Source of the DNA: Dialister sp.
GTDB taxonomy: Bacteria > Bacillota > Negativicutes > Veillonellales > Dialisteraceae
Direction: 5' to 3'
DNA length: 7,394 nt
Assembly (NCBI GenBank): GCA_022722495.1
Contig: JAIJLI010000094.1
Span: forward strand, 1-7,394
The notes under the pieces were generated by a model that was not told the DNA's origin, ran no database searches, and was given only the letters and a program-made list of their open reading frames with translations. A program made the position numbers and the translations under genes. This document shows, one piece after another, positions 1 through 7,394 of this stretch; positions within the stretch are counted from its first letter, which is position 1; each line of letters starts with the position of its first letter.

Positions 1-160
1 GAGTGAGGAGTGGTGGTGCGGCGCAAAAAATCATATAGCGCCGGACGTTTTAAGGAAACATGACCGAAACAAACTCCTCCGCCACACATGGGCATCGCTC
101 CATTTTCCTTTTGCGACGCTATATGAATCGTGCGCCGCCCTTTCACTCCCTGCTCCTCAC
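1..160. repeat. Composite repeat copy A: two half-elements in inverted orientation downstream of kdsB
   Basis: The two ends are imperfect inverted copies. GTGAGGAG at 3-10 matches its complement at 153-160. GCGGCGCA at 18-25 matches 131-138. TCATATAGCG at 31-40 matches 117-126, and an AAGGAAA-type stretch near 51-57 matches 103-110. About 40 bases of less-paired sequence lie in the centre. The right half, read on the minus strand, has the same order of motifs as the other copies: a GTGAGGAG-like repeat, the GCGGCGC core, then GGAGCGATGCCC (complement at 90-101). The left half has the first two on the plus strand. The region follows the kdsB stop directly and could fold into a large RNA or DNA hairpin. 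It has no T-run, so a factor-independent terminator is not supported. Confidence 0.75.
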
Positions 161-915
161 TTATTGTGAAAATATTTGAAAAAATTACATTCCCATTTTT
201 CAAAATATTCATTGGCCTTCTTCAGGTCTTCTTCGGTATCAATGCCGATATCCTGTGTCTTCACCTCGATGACACCGATCTTGTAGCCCATTTCGAGGGC
301 ACGGAGCTGCTCTAAGGACTCGGTCTTTTCGAGCGGGGTCTGCGCCATCTTCGCATAGGCGAGGAGGAAATCTCTCCGATACGCATAGATGCCGACGTGC
401 TTCAGCGCCGGCACTTCGAAATCGTGGCGGGGATACGGGATGAGGGAGCGGGAGAAATAGAGTGCTTCGCCCTTCTGGTTCACGACGACCTTGACTGCGG
501 AAGGATCATCGTATTCGTCTTCGTGGAGAGGCGTGGCGACAGTCGCCATATCCAGCTCCGGATGGTCGATGAGATCCTGCGCCAGACGATCGATCACGTC
601 TGGGTCGATCAGCGGTTCATCGCCCTGTACATTGACGATGATCTCATAGTCCGGCGTATGGGAAGCCACTTCTGCCAGACGATCGGTGCCTGTCGGATGG
701 TCGACGGAGGTCATCATGACATGACCGCCGAAGCTCTTCACTTCCTTCTCAATGTCCTCATGGTCTGTCGCAACGATGACGACGTCAGGGAGCTTGGCCT
801 GAACGGCTCTTTCATAGACACGATGCACCAGTGTCTCTCCCGCGATCAGGCGGAGGGGCTTCCCCGGAAGACGTGTCGATGCATACCGGGACGGAATGAT
901 ACAAGCAATTTTCAT
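157..915 (-). CDS. kdsB: 3-deoxy-manno-octulosonate cytidylyltransferase (CMP-Kdo synthetase)
   Basis: This cytoplasmic enzyme activates Kdo with CTP to give CMP-Kdo and pyrophosphate, the sugar donor for WaaA. The 252-residue length is typical of the family. Diagnostic segments are the N-terminal nucleotide-binding loop IIPSRYASTRLPGKPL (residues 6-21), the metal-binding NVQGDEPLI (95-103), KHVGIYAYR (172-180), TESLEQLRALE (198-208) and the near-terminal GIDTEEDL (224-231). The start at 915 is chosen because the protein begins at the family's usual MKIACIIPSR and has AAAGGAG six bases upstream. An ATG at 978 would add 21 residues unlike the family and overlap lpxK. It is the last gene of the run, 34 bases after lpxK. 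The tail after residue 238 (WECNFFKYFHNK) is AT-rich and ends inside the inverted repeat that supplies the stop codon, so the C-terminal residues may have been shaped by repeat insertion. Confidence 0.97.
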   Translation of the reverse strand: MKIACIIPSRYASTRLPGKPLRLIAGETLVHRVYERAVQAKLPDVVIVATDHEDIEKEVKSFGGHVMMTSVDHPTGTDRLAEVASHTPDYEIIVNVQGDEPLIDPDVIDRLAQDLIDHPELDMATVATPLHEDEYDDPSAVKVVVNQKGEALYFSRSLIPYPRHDFEVPALKHVGIYAYRRDFLLAYAKMAQTPLEKTESLEQLRALEMGYKIGVIEVKTQDIGIDTEEDLKKANEYFEKWECNFFKYFHNK

Positions 916-949: not shown

Positions 950-2077
950 TCATGGATGAGGGACTTGCGGCTTGGCATGGAGGAATTCTTCCAATACCTC
1001 CCTGTCTTCCTTCGAGAATGTCATCGCGATCTCAAGGACGTAAAAGGGAATGTCAGACTCAGCGAGGCTATCAAGGGAGAGCATCTTCACGGCATCTTTT
1101 TCTGTCATGACGATGAGCTCTGCGCCCTTGGCTTTGGCTTCGGAGATCGCATTCCGCACATCTTCTTCTGTATACCTGTGGTGGTCAGGGAAGGGCATCT
1201 CCCCCACCGGACGCAGACCGGCTTCCTTGGCGGTCTTTTTAAAGGCAGCGGGGTTTCCGATGCCGGAGACCAGATAGGCCTTCTTCATCCTGACGTCTTC
1301 GAGCGTCCCTTCATGAAGGAAGGCTTTCCACTTCTCATACGGCACCACCTTCGACGGCGCATGTGTGGAGGATAGGACGGGCACACCCGGCGCAAGACGG
1401 GCGAGCTCTTCTCTGATCTCCATCAGATCTGTCAGATGTACCTGATCACTCTTGGTCAGGATGAAAAGGCTCGCCCGCGAAAGGGCATCGAGCGGCTCCC
1501 GAAGCAGACCGCGGGGCAGGCCGTGACCATAGCCGAAGGGATTCGTCGCATCGATGAGAATGATATCTTGATCGCGTCTGAGCTTCCAGTACTGAAAGCC
1601 ATCATCCAAAAGCAGGATGCCCACTCCCATTTCCTCGGCTCTCTTGACAGAGGCAATGCGGTCTTTTCCGATGAAAATGGGGACGGAGGGAAGTTTTCTC
1701 GCCATCATGTAAGGCTCGTCCCCTGCCATCTGCTGGGATACGAGGATGGAGCTTCCATCCGATACACAGCCGCCTTCCTTTTCAAGGCCGCTTTTATAGC
1801 CTCGGCTGATGATGGCGGGCTTCTTACCGATTGAGCGGAAGAGCTCGGCCAGCATCAGGATGCAGGGGGTCTTGCCCGTCCCGCCTGCCGTGATATTGCC
1901 GACACTGATAACGGGTACATGGGCGGAGACCGCAGCGGCCATATCTGCCGTCCTCTTCTTTTCGACCTGAGAGAAATACATTTTTTCCAGCTGCGAAAGG
2001 CCTGACAGGACCAGCCTGTCCATGCCCTTCGGCGATGGCTCCTTCATCAAGCCTGTGACATAGGACTCAAGACTCAT
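950..2077 (-). CDS. lpxK: Tetraacyldisaccharide 4'-kinase
   Basis: LpxK phosphorylates the 4' position of tetraacyldisaccharide 1-phosphate with ATP to make lipid IVA, at the cytoplasmic face of the inner membrane. The 375 residues contain the family's P-loop SVGNITAGGTGKTP (58-71), SRGYKS (91-96), GDEP (119-122), DDGFQ (158-162), PRGLLREP (188-195), FPDHHRYT (296-303) and TEKDAVK (325-331). From knowledge of the Aquifex enzyme I infer that D120/E121 and a histidine in FPDHHRY are the catalytic and metal-site residues. The N-terminal ~50 residues are the amphipathic membrane-associating part. The ATG at 2077 has GGGAGG five bases upstream and overlaps the 3' end of waaA by 11 bases, suggesting translational coupling. 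No truncation or frameshift is visible. Confidence 0.97.
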   Translation of the reverse strand: MSLESYVTGLMKEPSPKGMDRLVLSGLSQLEKMYFSQVEKKRTADMAAAVSAHVPVISVGNITAGGTGKTPCILMLAELFRSIGKKPAIISRGYKSGLEKEGGCVSDGSSILVSQQMAGDEPYMMARKLPSVPIFIGKDRIASVKRAEEMGVGILLLDDGFQYWKLRRDQDIILIDATNPFGYGHGLPRGLLREPLDALSRASLFILTKSDQVHLTDLMEIREELARLAPGVPVLSSTHAPSKVVPYEKWKAFLHEGTLEDVRMKKAYLVSGIGNPAAFKKTAKEAGLRPVGEMPFPDHHRYTEEDVRNAISEAKAKGAELIVMTEKDAVKMLSLDSLAESDIPFYVLEIAMTFSKEDREVLEEFLHAKPQVPHP

Positions 2078-3395
2078 GACGGCCTCCCAGCTTCACGCCG
2101 GCTTCCGCGACCAGCTGCTCGAAAGCCTTGATGTTTCTCTCGGTCGCGCCCTGATTCTCATGCACCACGGTCAAAGCCGCCTCTCCCATCCGTTTCATGG
2201 TATCGGGATGAGAGAGAAGGTCCATGAGCGTTTCCTTGAATTCATGCTCTGACTTCGTCATGAGGCACACGCCGCGGCTCTCCAAAAGCTCGAAGATCTC
2301 CTGAAAGTTGAACATGTAAGGCCCGACGATGACAGGCTTGCCATGCGCCGCCGGCTCCAGAATATTATGACCGCCGACTTTGACGAAGCTGCCCCCGACA
2401 AAGACGACATCCGCCAGACTGTAAAGACGCCCAAGCTCTCCGATGGTATCCAGAATGACCACCTGCGGGCTCGTGCCGTCATCCTCCTCCGTGCCCATCT
2501 TGGAGCGGCGCAGGACGCTGTAGCCGTGATGCTTGATGGCAAATTTCACGGACGGCGCTCTCGTGATCTCACGAACGGCGAGAAGCAGACGCGCCTTCGG
2601 ATATTTTTTCAGGATCTCACCAAAGGTGCGGAGTACGATCTCCTCCTCTCCGCTGTGCGTGGAACCGGCGACGATGATCGGTCCCTTCCCGTCGAAGCGG
2701 AATTCTTTACGAAGCGCGGCGCGTTCTTCCTCCGACACTTCGGCATACGTCTGATCGTACTTGGTATTGCCTGTGATGGTGCAGCGCTTCGGCTGGGCGC
2801 CCATCGCGATGATGCGCTCCTCGTCGATGCGGGACTGCATGCAGAAACGCCGGATCTGGCAGAGCATGCGCGTCGTGAAGCGCTTGATCAGCGAATAGCG
2901 GCGCATCGAGCGGCTGCTGATGCGTCCATTCATCATCATGACAGGGATCTTTTTGCGGAAAGCGAGGCGAAGGAAATTCGGCCACAGCTCCGTTTCGATC
3001 AGAATGATCGCCTTGGGATTCACGATATCTACGATGCGCTCGGTGATGACGGGCAGGTCAAAGGGGAAGAAAATGTGTCCGTCAGCCTCTGGGATGATGC
3101 GCTGTGCCATGCGGTGACCAGTCGCAGTGACGACAGACACCACCACCATTTCATCCGGGTACTTCTTCTTCAGCTCGCGCACGATCGGGCTCGCGGCGAC
3201 CACTTCACCGACGGAAGCGGCATGCACCCAGATGGCATTGTGGTAGGCGATCTGCTGCAGCGTGGGCGTCGGCATGACGCCGGCGCTCTGCTTCAGACGG
3301 TCATAGAAGCCTTCTTCGAAGACAAGCCGATAGATCAGGATCGGTATCTGCAGCAGCCAGTAGGCGACAAGACAAATGTTGTAAATCCAGTACAA
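2067..3395 (-). CDS. waaA: 3-deoxy-D-manno-octulosonic acid (Kdo) transferase
   Basis: WaaA (KdtA, glycosyltransferase family 30) transfers Kdo from CMP-Kdo to lipid IVA at the inner membrane. Whether it adds one or more Kdo units cannot be told from sequence. The 442-residue protein has an N-terminal membrane anchor (about 3-24), then WVHAASVGEV (56-65; E64 aligns with the catalytic glutamate of SVGE), LIETELWPN (132-140), NGRIS (156-160), GNTKYDQ (209-215), AGSTHSGEE (243-251) and the C-terminal VGGSFVKVGGHNILEP (333-348). The segment that reads PRHPER in Escherichia coli is VREITRA here (274-280). The start is TTG at 3393-3395, with AAAGGAG six bases upstream and no alternative ATG in a suitable place. 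It lies 65 bases downstream of msbA and overlaps lpxK. Confidence 0.97.
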   Translation of the reverse strand: MYWIYNICLVAYWLLQIPILIYRLVFEEGFYDRLKQSAGVMPTPTLQQIAYHNAIWVHAASVGEVVAASPIVRELKKKYPDEMVVVSVVTATGHRMAQRIIPEADGHIFFPFDLPVITERIVDIVNPKAIILIETELWPNFLRLAFRKKIPVMMMNGRISSRSMRRYSLIKRFTTRMLCQIRRFCMQSRIDEERIIAMGAQPKRCTITGNTKYDQTYAEVSEEERAALRKEFRFDGKGPIIVAGSTHSGEEEIVLRTFGEILKKYPKARLLLAVREITRAPSVKFAIKHHGYSVLRRSKMGTEEDDGTSPQVVILDTIGELGRLYSLADVVFVGGSFVKVGGHNILEPAAHGKPVIVGPYMFNFQEIFELLESRGVCLMTKSEHEFKETLMDLLSHPDTMKRMGEAALTVVHENQGATERNIKAFEQLVAEAGVKLGGRHES

Positions 3396-3460: not shown

Positions 3461-5230
3461 TCATCCCTCTTCACTATTTTTCTCACGATCATTTTTCTGC
3501 GACATCGTGTAGAGCTCATGATACAGCCCTTTCTTTTCCATGAGCTCCTTATGTGTACCGCTTTCTTCGATGACGCCGTGATTCAGGACAAGGATCTGGT
3601 CAGCATTCTTGATGGTCGACAGGCGGTGAGCGATGACGAAGGAGGTACGACCGACCATGAGTTTGTCGAGCGCATCCTGCACGATCTTCTCGCTTTCCGT
3701 ATCGAGTGCGGAGGTCGCTTCGTCAAGGATGAGGATCTTCGGATTCTTCAAGATCGCTCTTGCGATGGCGATGCGCTGACGCTGACCGCCGGAGAGGACG
3801 AGGCCGCGATCGCCGACCTTGGTATCAATGCCGCGCGGCAGCCCTTGAATGAATTTCTCTGCATTCGCGGCGCGAATGGCATCCCAGACCTCTTCATCCG
3901 TCGCATCCAGGCGACCGTAGAGGACATTTTCTTTAATGGTGGTATTGAAGAGGAGTGTATCCTGCGGCACGAGGCCGATGTTGTCGCGAAGGGAGCCGAC
4001 CGTCACATCTCGGATATCGACGCCGTCGATGCAGATGGCTCCGCCTGTCACATCATAGAACCGCGGAAGCAAGTTGGCAATGGTGGTCTTGCCGGCGCCG
4101 GAGGGCCCGACGACGGCGATGGTCTGTCCGGGTCTGGCGACGAAATTCAGATCTGTCAGAACCGGATTGTCTTTTTCATAGGCAAAGGCCACATGGCGCG
4201 CTTCGACTAAGCCTTCTGTGACTTCGATCGGCTTGGCGCCGTCCTTGTCCTGGATCTCTGACTTCTCATCCAGGATCGCAAAGACGCGGTCTGCTGCAGC
4301 CAGGGATTTCTGGATATTACCGAAGCTTTCTGCCAGACGGCGGGTCGGATTGGCCAGGTTGATGGCATAGATCAGGAAGGCGATGAGCTCGCCGGTGGTC
4401 ATCACGCCCTCAATGACAGAGACACCGCCATACCAGATGATCGCGCAGACGGCAATGGCAGCGAGAAATTCGACCAGCGGCGTCATCTGGCTCTGCTGCC
4501 TTATGGAGCGCACGGTCGCCTTGAAACTGGATTCATTGATGTCATTGAAGCGCTTCTCTTCGAAGTCGCCTCGATTGAAGCTGCGCACGATGCGCACGCC
4601 CTGGATAGTCTCCTGCAGCATGGACGTCACATCGGCCAGTCGTTCCTGCACGTCGCGGCCGCTCGAGTGGAGCTTTTTCCCAAAGAATTTGATCGTATAA
4701 GAAACGAGCGGTACGATCACAAGGCAGAGCATCGTCAGTTTCCACTGCAGGTAGATCATGGAAACGAAAGAACCGATGAAAATGGCGCCTTCCTGCACCA
4801 GCTGGATGAAATTATCCACGATGGCTGTCTGCAGCGCCGCAATGTCATTCGTCAGGTTGCTCATGATGTCCCCGGTGCGGCGACGATCATAGTAGGAGAT
4901 CGATAATTTCTGCAGATGATGATACAGCGTATTTCGAAGATCCTTGATGACAGCCTGCCCGATGTATCCCATGAGGTAGCGGTGTCCAAAGGTGGTGATC
5001 GCGCGGATGAGGAAGGTCACAAGGATCGCCACGATGATGAGGTAGAGCATGGCAAGGTCCTTGTCATTCAGCACCTTATCGATGACATCCTTGATGATCC
5101 ACGGCACGACCAGGTTCGAGCCTGATACGAGCAGCATGAAGAACACGGAAACAAGAAGCAGCTTCCAGTAGGGTTTTAGATAGGATAACAGTCTCATGTA
5201 ACTGTTCAGTTTACTTGATTTTGTATTCAT
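3461..5230 (-). CDS. msbA: Lipid A export ABC transporter, permease and ATPase fused
   Basis: MsbA is a homodimeric ABC half-transporter that flips lipid A-core from the inner to the outer leaflet of the inner membrane. The 589 residues fit the family (about 580-600). A six-helix transmembrane domain (segments near 22-46, 61-82, 141-160, 163-182, 252-272, 278-297) precedes the nucleotide-binding domain. That domain has Walker A GPSGAGKTT (375-383), Q-loop Q423, signature LSGGQ (479-483), Walker B ILILDE (499-504), D-loop SALD (507-510) and H-loop H535. All catalytic positions are intact. The ATG at 5230 has GGAG six bases upstream. The assignment to MsbA rather than another exporter of this type rests partly on its place between lpxB and waaA. 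A T9/G7 double homopolymer lies 14 bases upstream of the start. Confidence 0.93.
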   Translation of the reverse strand: MNTKSSKLNSYMRLLSYLKPYWKLLLVSVFFMLLVSGSNLVVPWIIKDVIDKVLNDKDLAMLYLIIVAILVTFLIRAITTFGHRYLMGYIGQAVIKDLRNTLYHHLQKLSISYYDRRRTGDIMSNLTNDIAALQTAIVDNFIQLVQEGAIFIGSFVSMIYLQWKLTMLCLVIVPLVSYTIKFFGKKLHSSGRDVQERLADVTSMLQETIQGVRIVRSFNRGDFEEKRFNDINESSFKATVRSIRQQSQMTPLVEFLAAIAVCAIIWYGGVSVIEGVMTTGELIAFLIYAINLANPTRRLAESFGNIQKSLAAADRVFAILDEKSEIQDKDGAKPIEVTEGLVEARHVAFAYEKDNPVLTDLNFVARPGQTIAVVGPSGAGKTTIANLLPRFYDVTGGAICIDGVDIRDVTVGSLRDNIGLVPQDTLLFNTTIKENVLYGRLDATDEEVWDAIRAANAEKFIQGLPRGIDTKVGDRGLVLSGGQRQRIAIARAILKNPKILILDEATSALDTESEKIVQDALDKLMVGRTSFVIAHRLSTIKNADQILVLNHGVIEESGTHKELMEKKGLYHELYTMSQKNDREKNSEEG

Positions 5231-5244
5231 TCCATTCTCCAGAA

Positions 5245-5260
5245 TTTTTTTTTGGGGGGG
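5245..5260. repeat. Adjacent homopolymer tracts T9 and G7 upstream of msbA
   Basis: Nine T residues (5245-5253) are followed directly by seven G residues (5254-5260) on the plus strand. On the transcribed side this reads C7A9, ending four bases before the GGAG ribosome binding site of msbA (5237-5240). Such tracts are prone to slippage. Confidence 0.8.
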
Positions 5261-5359
5261 AGACTAAAGGTTCAAAGGGTTCAGGTTGATGGGTTCAGGG
5301 TTACAGGGCGTCCCTTGCTTGTGAATGAAAGCATGGCTCCCCAGTGAGGAGTGAAGGTA

Positions 5360-5384
5360 CGGCGCATAAAATGAGGGAGCGCCG
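5360..5384. repeat. Hairpin core of copy B
   Basis: CGGCGC at 5360-5365 pairs with GCGCCG at 5379-5384 around a 13-base loop. A flanking GTAC at 5357-5360 and another at 5389-5392 may extend the structure with an internal bulge. No T-run follows on either strand. Confidence 0.65.
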
Positions 5385-5409
5385 CGAAGTACAACTAGTG
5401 GCGATGCCC

Positions 5410-5520
5410 AAAAGTCTCTCGATAGCAGGCTTCCCGTTTTGAACTTTCCAAACATTGCCTACCTGACCGCGAATGACAAAGATTTCTCGCTTCACTCAAA
5501 ATGACGATACGGGAGTCTGA
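5410..5520. repeat. Insert in copy B, resembling a different dispersed repeat
   Basis: Where copies C and D pass from the GATGCCC box to the heptamers within about 15-25 bases, copy B has over 110 bases. The minus strand of the second half contains GTCATTTTGAGTGAAGCGAG followed by AAATC (about 5483-5507). I recognise this as similar to GTCATTTCGAGCGAAGCGAG-type interspersed sequences seen in many bacterial genomes. The first half (about 5410-5460) is not recognised. No transposase or target-site duplication is evident. Confidence 0.45.
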
Positions 5521-5535
5521 TGTCTCCTAATCTCC

Positions 5536-5563
5536 TAGTCACTAGCCACTAGTCACTAGCCAC
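5536..5563 (+). repeat. Heptamer array of four units at the lpxB 3' end
   Basis: The units TAGTCAC, TAGCCAC, TAGTCAC, TAGCCAC alternate exactly with a 7-base period and end three bases before the complement of the lpxB stop codon (5567-5569). Confidence 0.85.
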
Positions 5564-5566
5564 CAT

Positions 5567-6694
5567 TTACTTTTTCCCCGTCCTCACGATGAGCTCTGCC
5601 ACGCGGCGCACCGCGCCTCCGCCGCCCAGTGCTTTTCTCACTTCTCGGATGCCTTCCACATTCTTTTCTCGCGCGGCAGGCTGAATGAGCCACGGTGTCA
5701 CGATGCGGGAAATATTTTCCGCTGTCACTGCATCCTGCAGGAGCTCGGGAGTGACCTCACGGTCCAGCAGAAGATTCGGCAGGCCCGCATACTTCACGTG
5801 GACGAGAAGCTTCGCCAGCATCCATGTCACAGGCGCGAGGCGATAGATCAATACGGTCGGCAGCTCCATGAGCGCCGTTTCCAGTGTCGCCGTCCCCGAA
5901 GAGGCGACGCAGGCATCACAGATCTGCATCAGGTCATACTGCCTGCCCTCGGTGATCTCTACGGAAAGCTCCGAAGCCCCAATGAAGGACGAGAGCATCT
6001 CCATCGGGATCGTCGAGGCCCGGGGGATGAAGAACTGGCAGTCTGCCTTTTGGGCGAGCTGGCGCGCCGCCTCCAGCATCACGGGCAGAAGCCCCGCGAC
6101 CTCATTCTTGCGGCTCCCCGGCATGAGAAGGATACGCTTTTTATTCGGATCGCCATGGAAATAGGCCATCGCCTTCTCCTTCGACATGGAAGGCTTCACC
6201 GTATCCGCCAGCGGATGACCGACGAAGGTCACATGCGCTCCCGCCTTCCGGTATGCGTCCGCTTCAAAAGGAAATATGGACGCCACCTGCTCGACATCGC
6301 GGACGATGTTTTTCGCCCGTCCCTTGTTCCACGCCCAGATGGTGGGCGCGATATAGTAGACAACAGGGATGCCCAGCTCTTTCGCCACATGGGCGAGCTT
6401 CATATTGAATCCGGGGTAATCTACACAGACCAGCACATCCGGCTTTTCCCGCAGCATGGCTTCCTTCAGGAAGCTGCGCAGCTTGAAGAAGAGCGGCAGG
6501 TGCTTGATGACTTCCACCAGTCCGATGATGCCCAGATTTTCTATATCATAGATGATGCGGACGCCGCTCCTTCGCATGTCCGCACCGCCCATCCCGAAGA
6601 TGTCTGTCCCGGGGTAGAGCTTTTTGATTTCTGCCGCAACGGCTGCGGCATGCATATCGCCAGAGGCCTCTCCGGCAGACATCATGATTTTCAT
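5567..6694 (-). CDS. lpxB: Lipid-A-disaccharide synthase
   Basis: LpxB (glycosyltransferase family 19) joins lipid X and UDP-2,3-diacylglucosamine into the beta-1,6 disaccharide 1-phosphate at the cytoplasmic membrane surface. The 375-residue protein has family motifs in order: SAGEASGD (6-13), GMGG (35-38), VDYPGFN (91-97; D92 aligns with the essential aspartate), YYIAPTIWAW (113-122, where many homologues have YYVSPQVWAW), FVGHPLAD (157-164), LLMPGSRKNEV (189-199), SSGTATLE (265-272) and GLPNLL (304-309). The ATG at 6694 gives the standard N-terminus, and GAGGA lies eight bases upstream. It receives its first substrate from LpxI, encoded just upstream. It is isolated on both sides by large repeat-filled spacers, unlike the tightly packed waaA-lpxK pair. 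Confidence 0.97.
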   Translation of the reverse strand: MKIMMSAGEASGDMHAAAVAAEIKKLYPGTDIFGMGGADMRRSGVRIIYDIENLGIIGLVEVIKHLPLFFKLRSFLKEAMLREKPDVLVCVDYPGFNMKLAHVAKELGIPVVYYIAPTIWAWNKGRAKNIVRDVEQVASIFPFEADAYRKAGAHVTFVGHPLADTVKPSMSKEKAMAYFHGDPNKKRILLMPGSRKNEVAGLLPVMLEAARQLAQKADCQFFIPRASTIPMEMLSSFIGASELSVEITEGRQYDLMQICDACVASSGTATLETALMELPTVLIYRLAPVTWMLAKLLVHVKYAGLPNLLLDREVTPELLQDAVTAENISRIVTPWLIQPAAREKNVEGIREVRKALGGGGAVRRVAELIVRTGKK

Positions 6695-6718
6695 AAGTTA
6701 AGTCCTCGTGAATATAAG

Positions 6719-6760
6719 GGTTCAAGGTTCAAGGTTCAGGGTTCGGGGTTCAGGGTTCAG
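6719..6760 (+). repeat. GGTTCAR heptamer array
   Basis: Six units run in unbroken 7-base register: GGTTCAA, GGTTCAA, GGTTCAG, GGTTCGG, GGTTCAG, GGTTCAG, followed by a diverged GGTTAGC. The array begins 11 bases upstream of the lpxB ribosome binding site when read in the direction of transcription. Confidence 0.9.
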
Positions 6761-6811
6761 GGTTAGCCCTTGGGGCGTGCCATCCACTGATTCTAAATGA
6801 AAGCTTTGCTC

Positions 6812-6832
6812 GAATGAGGAATGAGGAATGAG
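6812..6832 (+). repeat. GAATGAG heptamer array
   Basis: Three perfect GAATGAG units are followed by a partial GAATG. Copy D has the related GAATGAG, AAATGAG, AAATG at 7024-7042. Copies A and B have GTGAGGAGTG at the same place. Confidence 0.85.
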
Positions 6833-6842
6833 GAATGGTGGT

Positions 6843-6869
6843 GCGGCGCATAAAATATGGAAGCGCCGC
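6843..6869. repeat. Hairpin core of copy C
   Basis: GCGGCGC at 6843-6849 and GCGCCGC at 6863-6869 form a perfect 7-base-pair stem around a 13-base AT-rich loop. There is no adjacent T-run on either strand, so it is not a classical terminator. Its position between heptamer blocks is the same in the other copies. Confidence 0.8.
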
Positions 6870-6905
6870 GGAATATAAATAGATCGATGCCCGAAGATGG
6901 CATTT

Positions 6906-6957
6906 CAGTCACCAGTCACTAGTCACCAGTCACTCCTAATCCCTAGCTACTCATCCC
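6906..6957 (+). repeat. YARYYMC heptamer array of copy C
   Basis: CAGTCAC, CAGTCAC, TAGTCAC, CAGTCAC run in 7-base register (6906-6933). After a three-base TCC step, TAATCCC, TAGCTAC and TCATCCC continue in register (6937-6957). Confidence 0.8.
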
Positions 6958-7048
6958 TGCTTTCAAACTTCAGGGTTAGCCCGGGGGCGTGCTGCCCTTT
7001 GATAACGGTTGAAAGCTCTGCGCGAATGAGAAATGAGAAATGGTGGTG

Positions 7049-7061
7049 GCGGCTTCGCCGC
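7049..7061. repeat. Shortened hairpin core of copy D
   Basis: GCGGC and GCCGC pair around a three-base TTC loop, replacing the 13-base loop of copies B and C while keeping a GC-rich stem in the same place. Confidence 0.7.
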
Positions 7062-7102
7062 GAGTATTATGGAGCGATGCCCGAAGGTAGTATTCAAGTC
7101 AC

Positions 7103-7161
7103 CAGTCACTAGTCACTAGTCACTCCTAATCCCTAATTCCTAGCTACTAGCCACCAGTCAC
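7103..7161 (+). repeat. YARYYMC heptamer array at the lpxI 3' end
   Basis: Units CAGTCAC, TAGTCAC, TAGTCAC (7103-7123), a three-base TCC step, then TAATCCC, TAATTCC, TAGCTAC, TAGCCAC, CAGTCAC (7127-7161) give eight heptamers in two in-register blocks. The final unit contains the complement of the lpxI TGA (7158-7160). Confidence 0.85.
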
Positions 7162-7394
7162 TTCTTTCCTTCCACCGCCAATATCACAATGCCTTTTTTA
7201 TTGGCCTCTTGGAGCACGGCTTCCTTTTCTGCAAAAAGGGTATGCCAGGCTTCGATTGCAAGGACCGCGCAGCCGCTCTCCTCCATGGAAGAAAGGGTCG
7301 TAAGTCCGACCGCCGGCATGTCGAAGCGGGTATCCTGTCCGGGCTTGGCTGTCTTCACGACGACAGCGCCGCCGCGGGCGAGACTGCCGCCACG
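7158..7394 (-). CDS. lpxI: UDP-2,3-diacylglucosamine pyrophosphatase LpxI, C-terminal part (cut by window edge)
   Basis: LpxI hydrolyses UDP-2,3-diacylglucosamine to lipid X and UMP, replacing the unrelated LpxH in many bacteria. Only the last 78 residues are present; the family is about 270 residues, so the 5' part lies beyond position 7394. The visible part starts within RGGSLARGG and continues with VVKTAKPGQDTRFDMPAVG (about residues 12-30 of the fragment), the hallmark of the LpxI C-terminal domain (formerly DUF1009), which I believe includes the catalytic aspartate region. It then has CAVLAIEAWHTL and GIVILAVEG. A GTG at 7356-7358 is internal and should not be taken as the start, because the reading frame and family similarity continue upstream. 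The TGA stop lies inside the heptamer array that fills the downstream spacer. Adjacency to lpxB supports the call. Confidence 0.92.
   Translation of the reverse strand, partial: RGGSLARGGAVVVKTAKPGQDTRFDMPAVGLTTLSSMEESGCAVLAIEAWHTLFAEKEAVLQEANKKGIVILAVEGKK

Follow-up and report, generated by a model that had tools for sequence, protein, structure and literature searches.

What are the repeated sequences that lie between the genes of a lipid A operon in Dialister sp., and how did they come to be there? The window, i.e., the whole 7,394-nt stretch of DNA that was analyzed, contained six genes of the lipid A/Kdo operon, all on the minus strand and all assigned by profile matches: kdsB (157-915), lpxK (950-2077), the Kdo transferase gene waaA (2067-3395), msbA (3461-5230), lpxB (5567-6694), and the 3′ part of lpxI (7158-7394, stop codon 7158-7160). 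The msbA match to TIGR02203 was barely above the cut-off; lpxI, being cut by the window edge, matched LpxI_C and scored well under the NCBIfam cut-off. The closest loci in terms of LpxB included those of Dialister sp. UBA1703 (83%) and D. succinatiphilus (81%), followed by other Dialister/Veillonellaceae records (75-78%). The first-pass annotation had described a composite intergenic repeat inside an operon of envelope genes, and the profile matches bore out this location, the operon being that of lipid A.

Copies C and D of the repeat occurred together in the lpxI-lpxB gap, both on the plus strand. Copy C (6717-6960) comprised a GGTTCAR array (6717-6764), the CAGGGTTAGCCC block and a GAATGAG array (6812-6837), behind which the sequence and the predicted folds of both strands gave a GC hairpin (GCGGCGC/GCGCCGC, 6843-6869). 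A second, small hairpin (ATGCC/GGCAT, 6887-6903) was found by folding, and the copy closed with an AGTCACY array with drifting outer units (6906-6956; 6906-6934 by Tandem Repeats Finder together with the sequence). Copy D (6961-7160) comprised the TTCAGGGTTAGCCC edge, an AATGAGA array (7025-7042), a GC hairpin found by sequence search (GCGGC TTC GCCGC, 7049-7061) in the form that is common in the related genomes G001 and G007, and an AGTCACT array (7097-7124) with drifting units to 7160. Tandem Repeats Finder counted 6.9 copies of AGGGTTC (6717-6764), 3.7 of GAATGAG (6812-6837), 2.6 of AATGAGA (7025-7042), and 4.0 of AGTCACT (7097-7124). The hairpin foot was GGTG in both C and D, and the array ended 0-4 nt from the foot in both. 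All annotated modules were located at their positions in the sequence, and C and D followed the same order of blocks, D having only the edge of the GGTTCAR array as had been claimed. The extent of the last array in D was revised, in that its heptamers run to 7160 and contain the lpxI stop codon.

Copy B (5265-5566, plus strand), which was delimited by sequence, Tandem Repeats Finder and alignment, filled the lpxB-msbA gap. It contained a GGTTCA-type array (5276-5308), GGAGTGA-type units (about 5343-5356), hairpin arms at 5360-5365 and 5379-5384, and a CTAGTCA/CTAGCCA array (5535-5563). It had been said to repeat the order of C and D; the block order was indeed common, but extra sequence lay between GATGCCC and the last array. 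Half-copies had also been proposed at 1-160, and they were present there as two facing halves rather than as one half-copy. The forward half of copy A (1-60, plus strand) carried GAGTGAG/GAGTGG units (1-16) and hairpin stem arms at 19-24 and 38-43. The reverse half (86-161, minus strand, aligned to about 165) carried a GATGCCC block, hairpin arms at 113-119 and 132-138, and an inverted array to 161, inside which the kdsB stop codon (157-159) was located. In the lpxK-kdsB gap, the sequence showed a two-unit heptamer run (GTGACTA, 931-947) with no hairpin. Because the operon is on the minus strand, copies B, C, and D, oriented by the hairpin foot, are antisense to it. A run of nine T followed by a G run, which could slip, was observed just upstream of the msbA ribosome site (about 5245-5261).

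The composite repeat was confirmed as real. The best period-7 run scores were 13 in B, 30 in C, and 19 in D, and the best of 500 dinucleotide shuffles per copy, with maxima taken over periods 4-12, reached 10, 11, and 9, respectively. Copies C and D aligned with 141/167 identities (z 54.6), B and C with 118/142 (z 19.8), B and D with z 11.3, and C and the locus L081 of Dialister sp. UBA1703 with 167/192 (z 53.5). The forward half of A (1-60) scored z 15.9 against both B and C, 4.4 against D, and 0.6 against L081; the reverse half (about 86-165) was the weaker one, with z 6.0 against D, 3.8 against B, and 2.7 against C. B, C, D, and L081 share one block order, with alignment scores 11 to 55 standard deviations above shuffles, and the alignments uphold the original view of a structured element rather than random low-complexity sequence. 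No named family had been recognized, in agreement with the Rfam covariance models, which gave no match to the window up to E = 1.

The gaps that hold the repeat were compared with the same junctions in eight relatives (L001-L008). The lpxI-lpxB distance was 463 nt in the window, whereas the genes overlapped by 4 nt in seven of the eight relatives and were separated by a few bases in L006 (by eye). The lpxB-msbA distance was 336 nt, against overlaps of 4 to 17 nt in all eight. On the 3′ side of kdsB, at least 156 nt ran to the window edge, whereas an overlap of 4 nt with the next gene was read by eye in the seven relatives printed; from its first residues we take this gene to be kdsA. At three places, then, the window has a filled gap and the relatives have genes that overlap or abut. 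In the window, lpxI and kdsB end within the outermost heptamers and lpxB ends beside heptamers, and the starts of lpxB and msbA are preceded by ribosome-site-like sequences (by eye). At the end of kdsB (157-200), EYFEKWECNFFKYFHNK was found in the window and EYFERNHL in L001, the gene continuing into the heptamers.

The other junctions were more variable. The waaA-lpxK overlap was 11 nt in the window, as in four relatives. The lpxK-kdsB gap was 34 nt with its two heptamer units, against -4 nt in four relatives, -1 in one, +18 in one, and -70 in two, the last value probably reflecting a misread start. The msbA-waaA gap was 65 nt in the window and ranged from -1 to 249 nt in the relatives; the 249-nt gap, in L005 (Dialister sp. 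UBA7295), contained GCTAATA-like and AACGAAC-like arrays (about 12512-12735) directly behind the msbA stop codon. Six further pairs of unequal gaps were compared between relatives. The gap of G005, the genome of Dialister sp. UBA7295, contained arrays and a hairpin that the relative's gap did not in two pairs (L304/L129 and L310/L332); the same gap was filled in both species, each by its own version, in L308/L314; the hairpin was present on both sides of L120/L323, with more in G001; the G001 gap contained hairpin modules and other sequence in L133/L317; and the difference was a whole gene, not a repeat, in L312/L131. These mixed outcomes indicated that gap length alone is no proof. Neither a transposition event nor a target duplication was seen, and the relatives, at about 70-77% DNA identity, are too distant for one to be read. 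In L312 (560-1120, G005), an acetyltransferase-like reading frame (by eye) was situated between two genes and was absent in G001 (L131).

A search with C and D together gave one further composite, L081 of UBA1703 (E 7e-28; 71% identity over 192 bases), along with numerous partial matches, mostly around the hairpin, in G001 and G007. At E 0.01, matches were found in three of six genomes of the genus. The full block order was therefore present in B, C, D, and at least one site outside the window; in the two richest genomes, G001 and G007, 40 of 60 and 40 of 96 candidates were scored, and more full-order copies are possible there. Two hairpin patterns were then counted, GGTGCGGCGC...GCGCCGC (long) and GGTGGCGGC...GCCGC (second). 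Long and second patterns matched 55 and 72 times in G005 (127 in total), 0 and 57 times in G001, and 0 and 73 times in G007, counts that come from the relatives' genomes and include a few palindromic hairpins on both strands; the reversed second pattern matched 0, 8, and 3 times in G005, G001, and G007. A search for further copies in related genomes had been proposed, and the hairpin core indeed recurred 57, 73, and 127 times in three Dialister genomes. In the other nine genomes of the family, the long pattern gave 0 to 1 match and the second pattern 0 to 7: 2 to 7 in G002, G003, and G004, where the reversed control gave 6 to 10, 3 against 0 in G011, and 1 against 0 in G009. Among the genomes of the family, the long hairpin was thus seen in G005 as well as in the window; the repeat family extends over part of the genus, as far as sampled. 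Of 300 genomes of the class, 23 contained the long pattern: G005 had 55 matches and the remaining 22 had one or two apiece; the reversed control had a single match in each of 12 genomes. The one of these 22 that was read (L373) lay in a repeat-rich stretch unlike the element, and the GGTGCGGCGCATAAAAT pattern matched five viral stretches, none of which resembled the element by eye.

The fixed order of modules was not supported as the rule for the family. What recurs across the genus is an array-hairpin unit, in which a tandem array sits at the GGTG foot of a GC hairpin, while the array sequence and the neighboring modules change; the initial reading of the repeat family as a whole is thus partly supported. 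We examined 127 distinct hairpins in stretches around the copies (74 in G005, 41 in G007, and 12 in G001) as well as two in the window. Only 2/127 lay inside genes called by codon usage (G005 0, G007 1, G001 1). When, as a cruder rule, every ORF of 100 aa or more was counted as a gene, 26/74, 17/41, and 2/12 of the copies in G005, G007, and G001 fell inside ORFs, a difference that we take as due to spurious frames in GC-rich repeats. Of the arrays of period 7, 8, 9, or 14, 221/226 were outside coding-like frames, window included.

The array had a preferred side. Under a threshold that shuffled flanks reach in at most 1%, a 5′ array was present in 41/74 hairpins of G005, 16/41 of G007, and 7/12 of G001, against 10, 4, and 1 with a 3′ array (Fisher p = 1e-7, 0.004, and 0.03, respectively). 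In G005, 32 of the 41 5′ arrays (32/74 copies) ended 0-4 nt from the GGTG foot, and 33/74 copies had no 5′ array under the rule used; in G007, 9/16 were 25-34 nt off the hairpin. The 5′ periods were all 7 or 9 save for three cases, of which the one in G005 was a run of N and the two period-5 cases in G007 may be so too. The units are thus 7 nt in the window and mostly 7 or 9 nt in relatives. Among the seven-nt arrays of G005, 20/28 could be followed by the counting rule, with four units in 11 arrays, five in 8, and six in 1; the ten nine-nt arrays had five units (6 arrays), three (3), or six (1). Unit sequences among copies included CGTGATT, CGGGGTG, CGTTCTT, AGGGATT, and the nine-nt TCGGGNNNN, and the unit identity was 6.0 of 7 within arrays against 4.8 between arrays. 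In evenly spaced 400-kb samples, arrays of period 7/8/9 with at least 2.9 copies numbered 5/3/11 in G007 and 0/0/2 in its congener G011, and 422 kb of Veillonella loci gave 0/2/0; array richness and the hairpin occur together in this small comparison.

Three ideas about the arrays themselves were rejected. The first was that flanking arrays are, as a rule, inverted copies of one heptamer: among copies with a 5′ array (40 in G005, 13 in G007, 3 in G001, and 2 in the window), a copy's own reversed downstream DNA scored no better than that of another copy (means 11.6 vs. 13.2 in G005 and 12.3 vs. 13.2 in G007), and facing heptamer arrays occurred as single cases, at both ends in L310 and in L005. 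The second was that arrays behind genes supply stop codons. Among arrays located between 25 nt inside a gene end and 60 nt beyond it, three-frame stops in sense and antisense were found in 8 and 6 of 15 in G001, 6 and 8 of 23 in G005, 2 and 1 of 6 in G007, and 2 and 1 of 2 in the window, and this was dismissed as a general purpose. The third was that the window heptamers are special in viruses. Exact triples matched 10, 57, and 17 viral stretches and permuted units 0, 8, and 70, the first control being misleading if taken alone; since permuted units match as well, the units of the window are not special there. In the phage contig L150 (about 1350 and 2340), AGTCACT arrays were seen by eye between a stop codon and a ribosome-site-like sequence.

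From these observations we judge it somewhat probable that the element is a composite intergenic repeat built on a unit of GC hairpin and 5′ array, that it likely spread in a REP-like, non-autonomous manner, and that it likely uncouples the genes of the lipid A operon. The hairpin would be the part that is copied or selected, and either slippage or conversion among the units would let the array grow and become homogeneous in place. With the inserts, tight junctions of the window's operon may have given way to separate stop codons and ribosome sites, so that the spacer would end translational coupling; at most the inserts would add small hairpins to the operon mRNA. A covarying inner stem pair of the G005 hairpins, described below, counts for this reading as well. 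RNA folding gave it partial support: copy C on the minus strand (z -3.2) and the facing pair at 15-164 (z -3.1 and -4.0 on the two strands) folded better than shuffles, and B, D, the plus strand of C, and the whole C and D gap were within shuffles. No common direction of the hairpin relative to genes was found in the relatives, so the antisense setting in the window is not a rule. Mobility and the effect on expression are both what we infer from the comparison of sequences. The presence of such elements in lipid A junctions that overlap or abut in relatives amounts to a natural experiment on the importance of translational coupling at these junctions.

It is also conceivable, if rather doubtful, that the hairpin directs the array: a process at the 5′ foot of the palindrome would write or rewrite about four units, with the unit sequence replaced at once and the number and flanks kept. 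Among the 31 copy pairs of G005 with like left flanks (at least 14/20), which share copies and are not independent, 10 differed by T versus G at one and the same unit position, throughout all four units, and in the best pair the flank was alike at 18/20 positions, the hairpin was identical and the array units differed. If true, this would constitute a hairpin-anchored generator of short tandem repeats, and it would account for the finding of arrays with 7- and 9-nt units and variable sequence on one side of the same palindrome. The same pattern would be expected from ordinary slippage and conversion if arrays of about four units were selected. A family whose arrays hold a fixed position next to a palindrome, with units that are interchangeable and narrowly limited in number, can be counted, and models of slippage, conversion, and hairpin direction make different predictions for it.

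A MITE mobilized in trans by another kind of transposase is a further explanation, which we regard as fairly unlikely. It agrees with the inserts of array and hairpin in gaps of G005 whose counterparts in relatives are short (L304 vs. L129, L310 vs. L332), and with the facing heptamer arrays at both ends in L310 and in L005. However, the copies have no terminal inverted repeat in common because their array sequences differ, and of the transposase families tested, namely Y1, IS110, DDE_Tnp_1, and Mutator types, none tracks the hairpin across genomes. The last three were richest in G011 (40 DDE_Tnp_1, 16 Mutator-type, and 14 IS110-type matches), yet this genome gave three hairpin-pattern matches. 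Reverse transcriptase was also considered and rejected, RVT_1 giving four matches in G007, one in G002, and none in G001 and G005.

Movement by a REP-associated tyrosine transposase (RAYT), in which facing hairpin pairs of a REPIN/BIME family would be mobile and the arrays baggage, appeared improbable. High-copy intergenic palindromes, the facing pair at 1-160 of the window, and two Y1 transposase matches (PF01797) in G005 speak for it, but no PF01797 match was found in G007 or in the draft assembly of G001 despite their 73 and 57 hairpin matches. A linked RAYT, which had been suggested as something to look for, was not found, PF01797 being absent from two of the three hairpin-rich genomes. 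Moreover, the foot is GGTG, also in the relatives' copies that this pattern retrieved, as opposed to the GTAG tag given for REPs in PMC3733652, and arrays that face each other were no commoner than chance in relatives.

Plain heptamer slippage, i.e., gaps that grew in place from short direct repeats with hairpins arising by chance, is quite improbable. Heptamer repeats are widespread in bacteria according to the accounts in PMC4692102 and PMC4679880, permuted heptamers occur in viral contigs too, and the lpxK-kdsB gap holds a two-unit run. It was already disfavored by the common non-repeat blocks that B, C, D, and L081 have in one order; the hairpin core is furthermore repeated tens of times, with the array side and distance fixed in G005.

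An RNA or terminator-like element acting in cis to control expression inside operons was considered just as improbable. TTTT was found within 12 nt behind the hairpin in 43/74 G005, 30/41 G007, and 5/12 G001 copies, and in the short hairpins of G005 the first inner pair of the stem covaried (C-G 27, G-C 6, T-A 2; 35/35 paired) without being forced by the search pattern, whereas the loop of the G001 and G007 hairpins leaves no inner pair comparable to it. Against this, a T run was present in 0/2 scored window copies, terminator-like sites in 5200-7200 numbered 3 vs. 1.6 expected, and the G005 hairpins had no orientation bias to genes.

A G-quadruplex-forming repeat, as proposed for the Xanthomonas and Nostoc heptamers, is the least credible explanation and was rejected as a common function: a canonical motif occurred within 80 nt 5′ of 30/74 G005 copies (none on the other strand; shuffles predict 0.5) and once in a window array (6739-6762), but beside only 1/41 G007, 0/12 G001, and 0/2 window hairpins, and the GAATGAG, CGTGATT, and AGTCACT units are unable to form it.

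Cyanobacterial STRR heptamers resemble those found here in forming intergenic heptamer arrays. Calothrix is mentioned once in PMC4692102. REP palindromes and REPINs have been described for many genomes (PMC3116915, PMC3733652). Like the present element, REP, REPIN, and BIME sequences are short GC palindromes with many intergenic copies, at times facing or with other modules (PMC3116915, PMC2817692, PMC3733652); here, a short palindrome gave 57-127 pattern matches in three relatives and was in coding-like frames in 2/127 cases. They differ in the tag (GTAG or CGTC, vs. the GGTG foot), in the Y1/RAYT transposase that two rich genomes here lacked among their profile matches, and in the 7-/9-nt array beside the hairpin, which is not among the REP features as described in these three sources.

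Heptameric intergenic repeats are reported from Xanthomonas, Nostoc, and Beggiatoaceae among others (PMC4692102, PMC4679880), and heptamers are said to be the most abundant long-unit repeat class in most genomes surveyed, with their origin open (PMC4679880, citing Mrazek 2007). The present element likewise has 7-nt tandem units over-represented outside genes. The GGGNATC heptamers of Xanthomonas and Nostoc are similarly intergenic, mostly of about four units, at times facing, and found between same-strand genes too, and the account in PMC4692102 describes no conserved hairpin beside the array, which is present here; the window units are GGTTCAR, GAATGAG, and AGTCACY, and G-quadruplex motifs are common only in G005. 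The TAACTGA heptamers of Beggiatoaceae also form short intergenic arrays, including within essential-gene operons, but are presented as one unit genome-wide, mostly at the start codon (PMC4679880), whereas the units here are variable and attached to a hairpin. The BrickBuilt MITE of Porphyromonas gingivalis is comparable as a tandem repeat in a dispersed, always intergenic composite, and differs in its 23-nt units, leader and tail, about 19 copies, and small inverted ends (PMC4596501). The STAR elements of Staphylococcus are akin to the present element as direct repeats scattered through intergenic regions, which differ in location between species and which expand and contract; they are of a different repeat kind, and the description in PMC3532100 mentions no array at a hairpin foot.

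Our literature search, which was thin on subscription journals, returned no description of these repeats in Dialister and none of an array of heptamers joined to a palindrome on one side; the main text of RepRanger (PMC12306157) mentions neither Dialister nor Veillonella. We therefore take the fused array and palindrome as a new variation on known repeat types. We read the element as a REP-like, non-autonomous repeat joined to heptamers that are prone to slippage.
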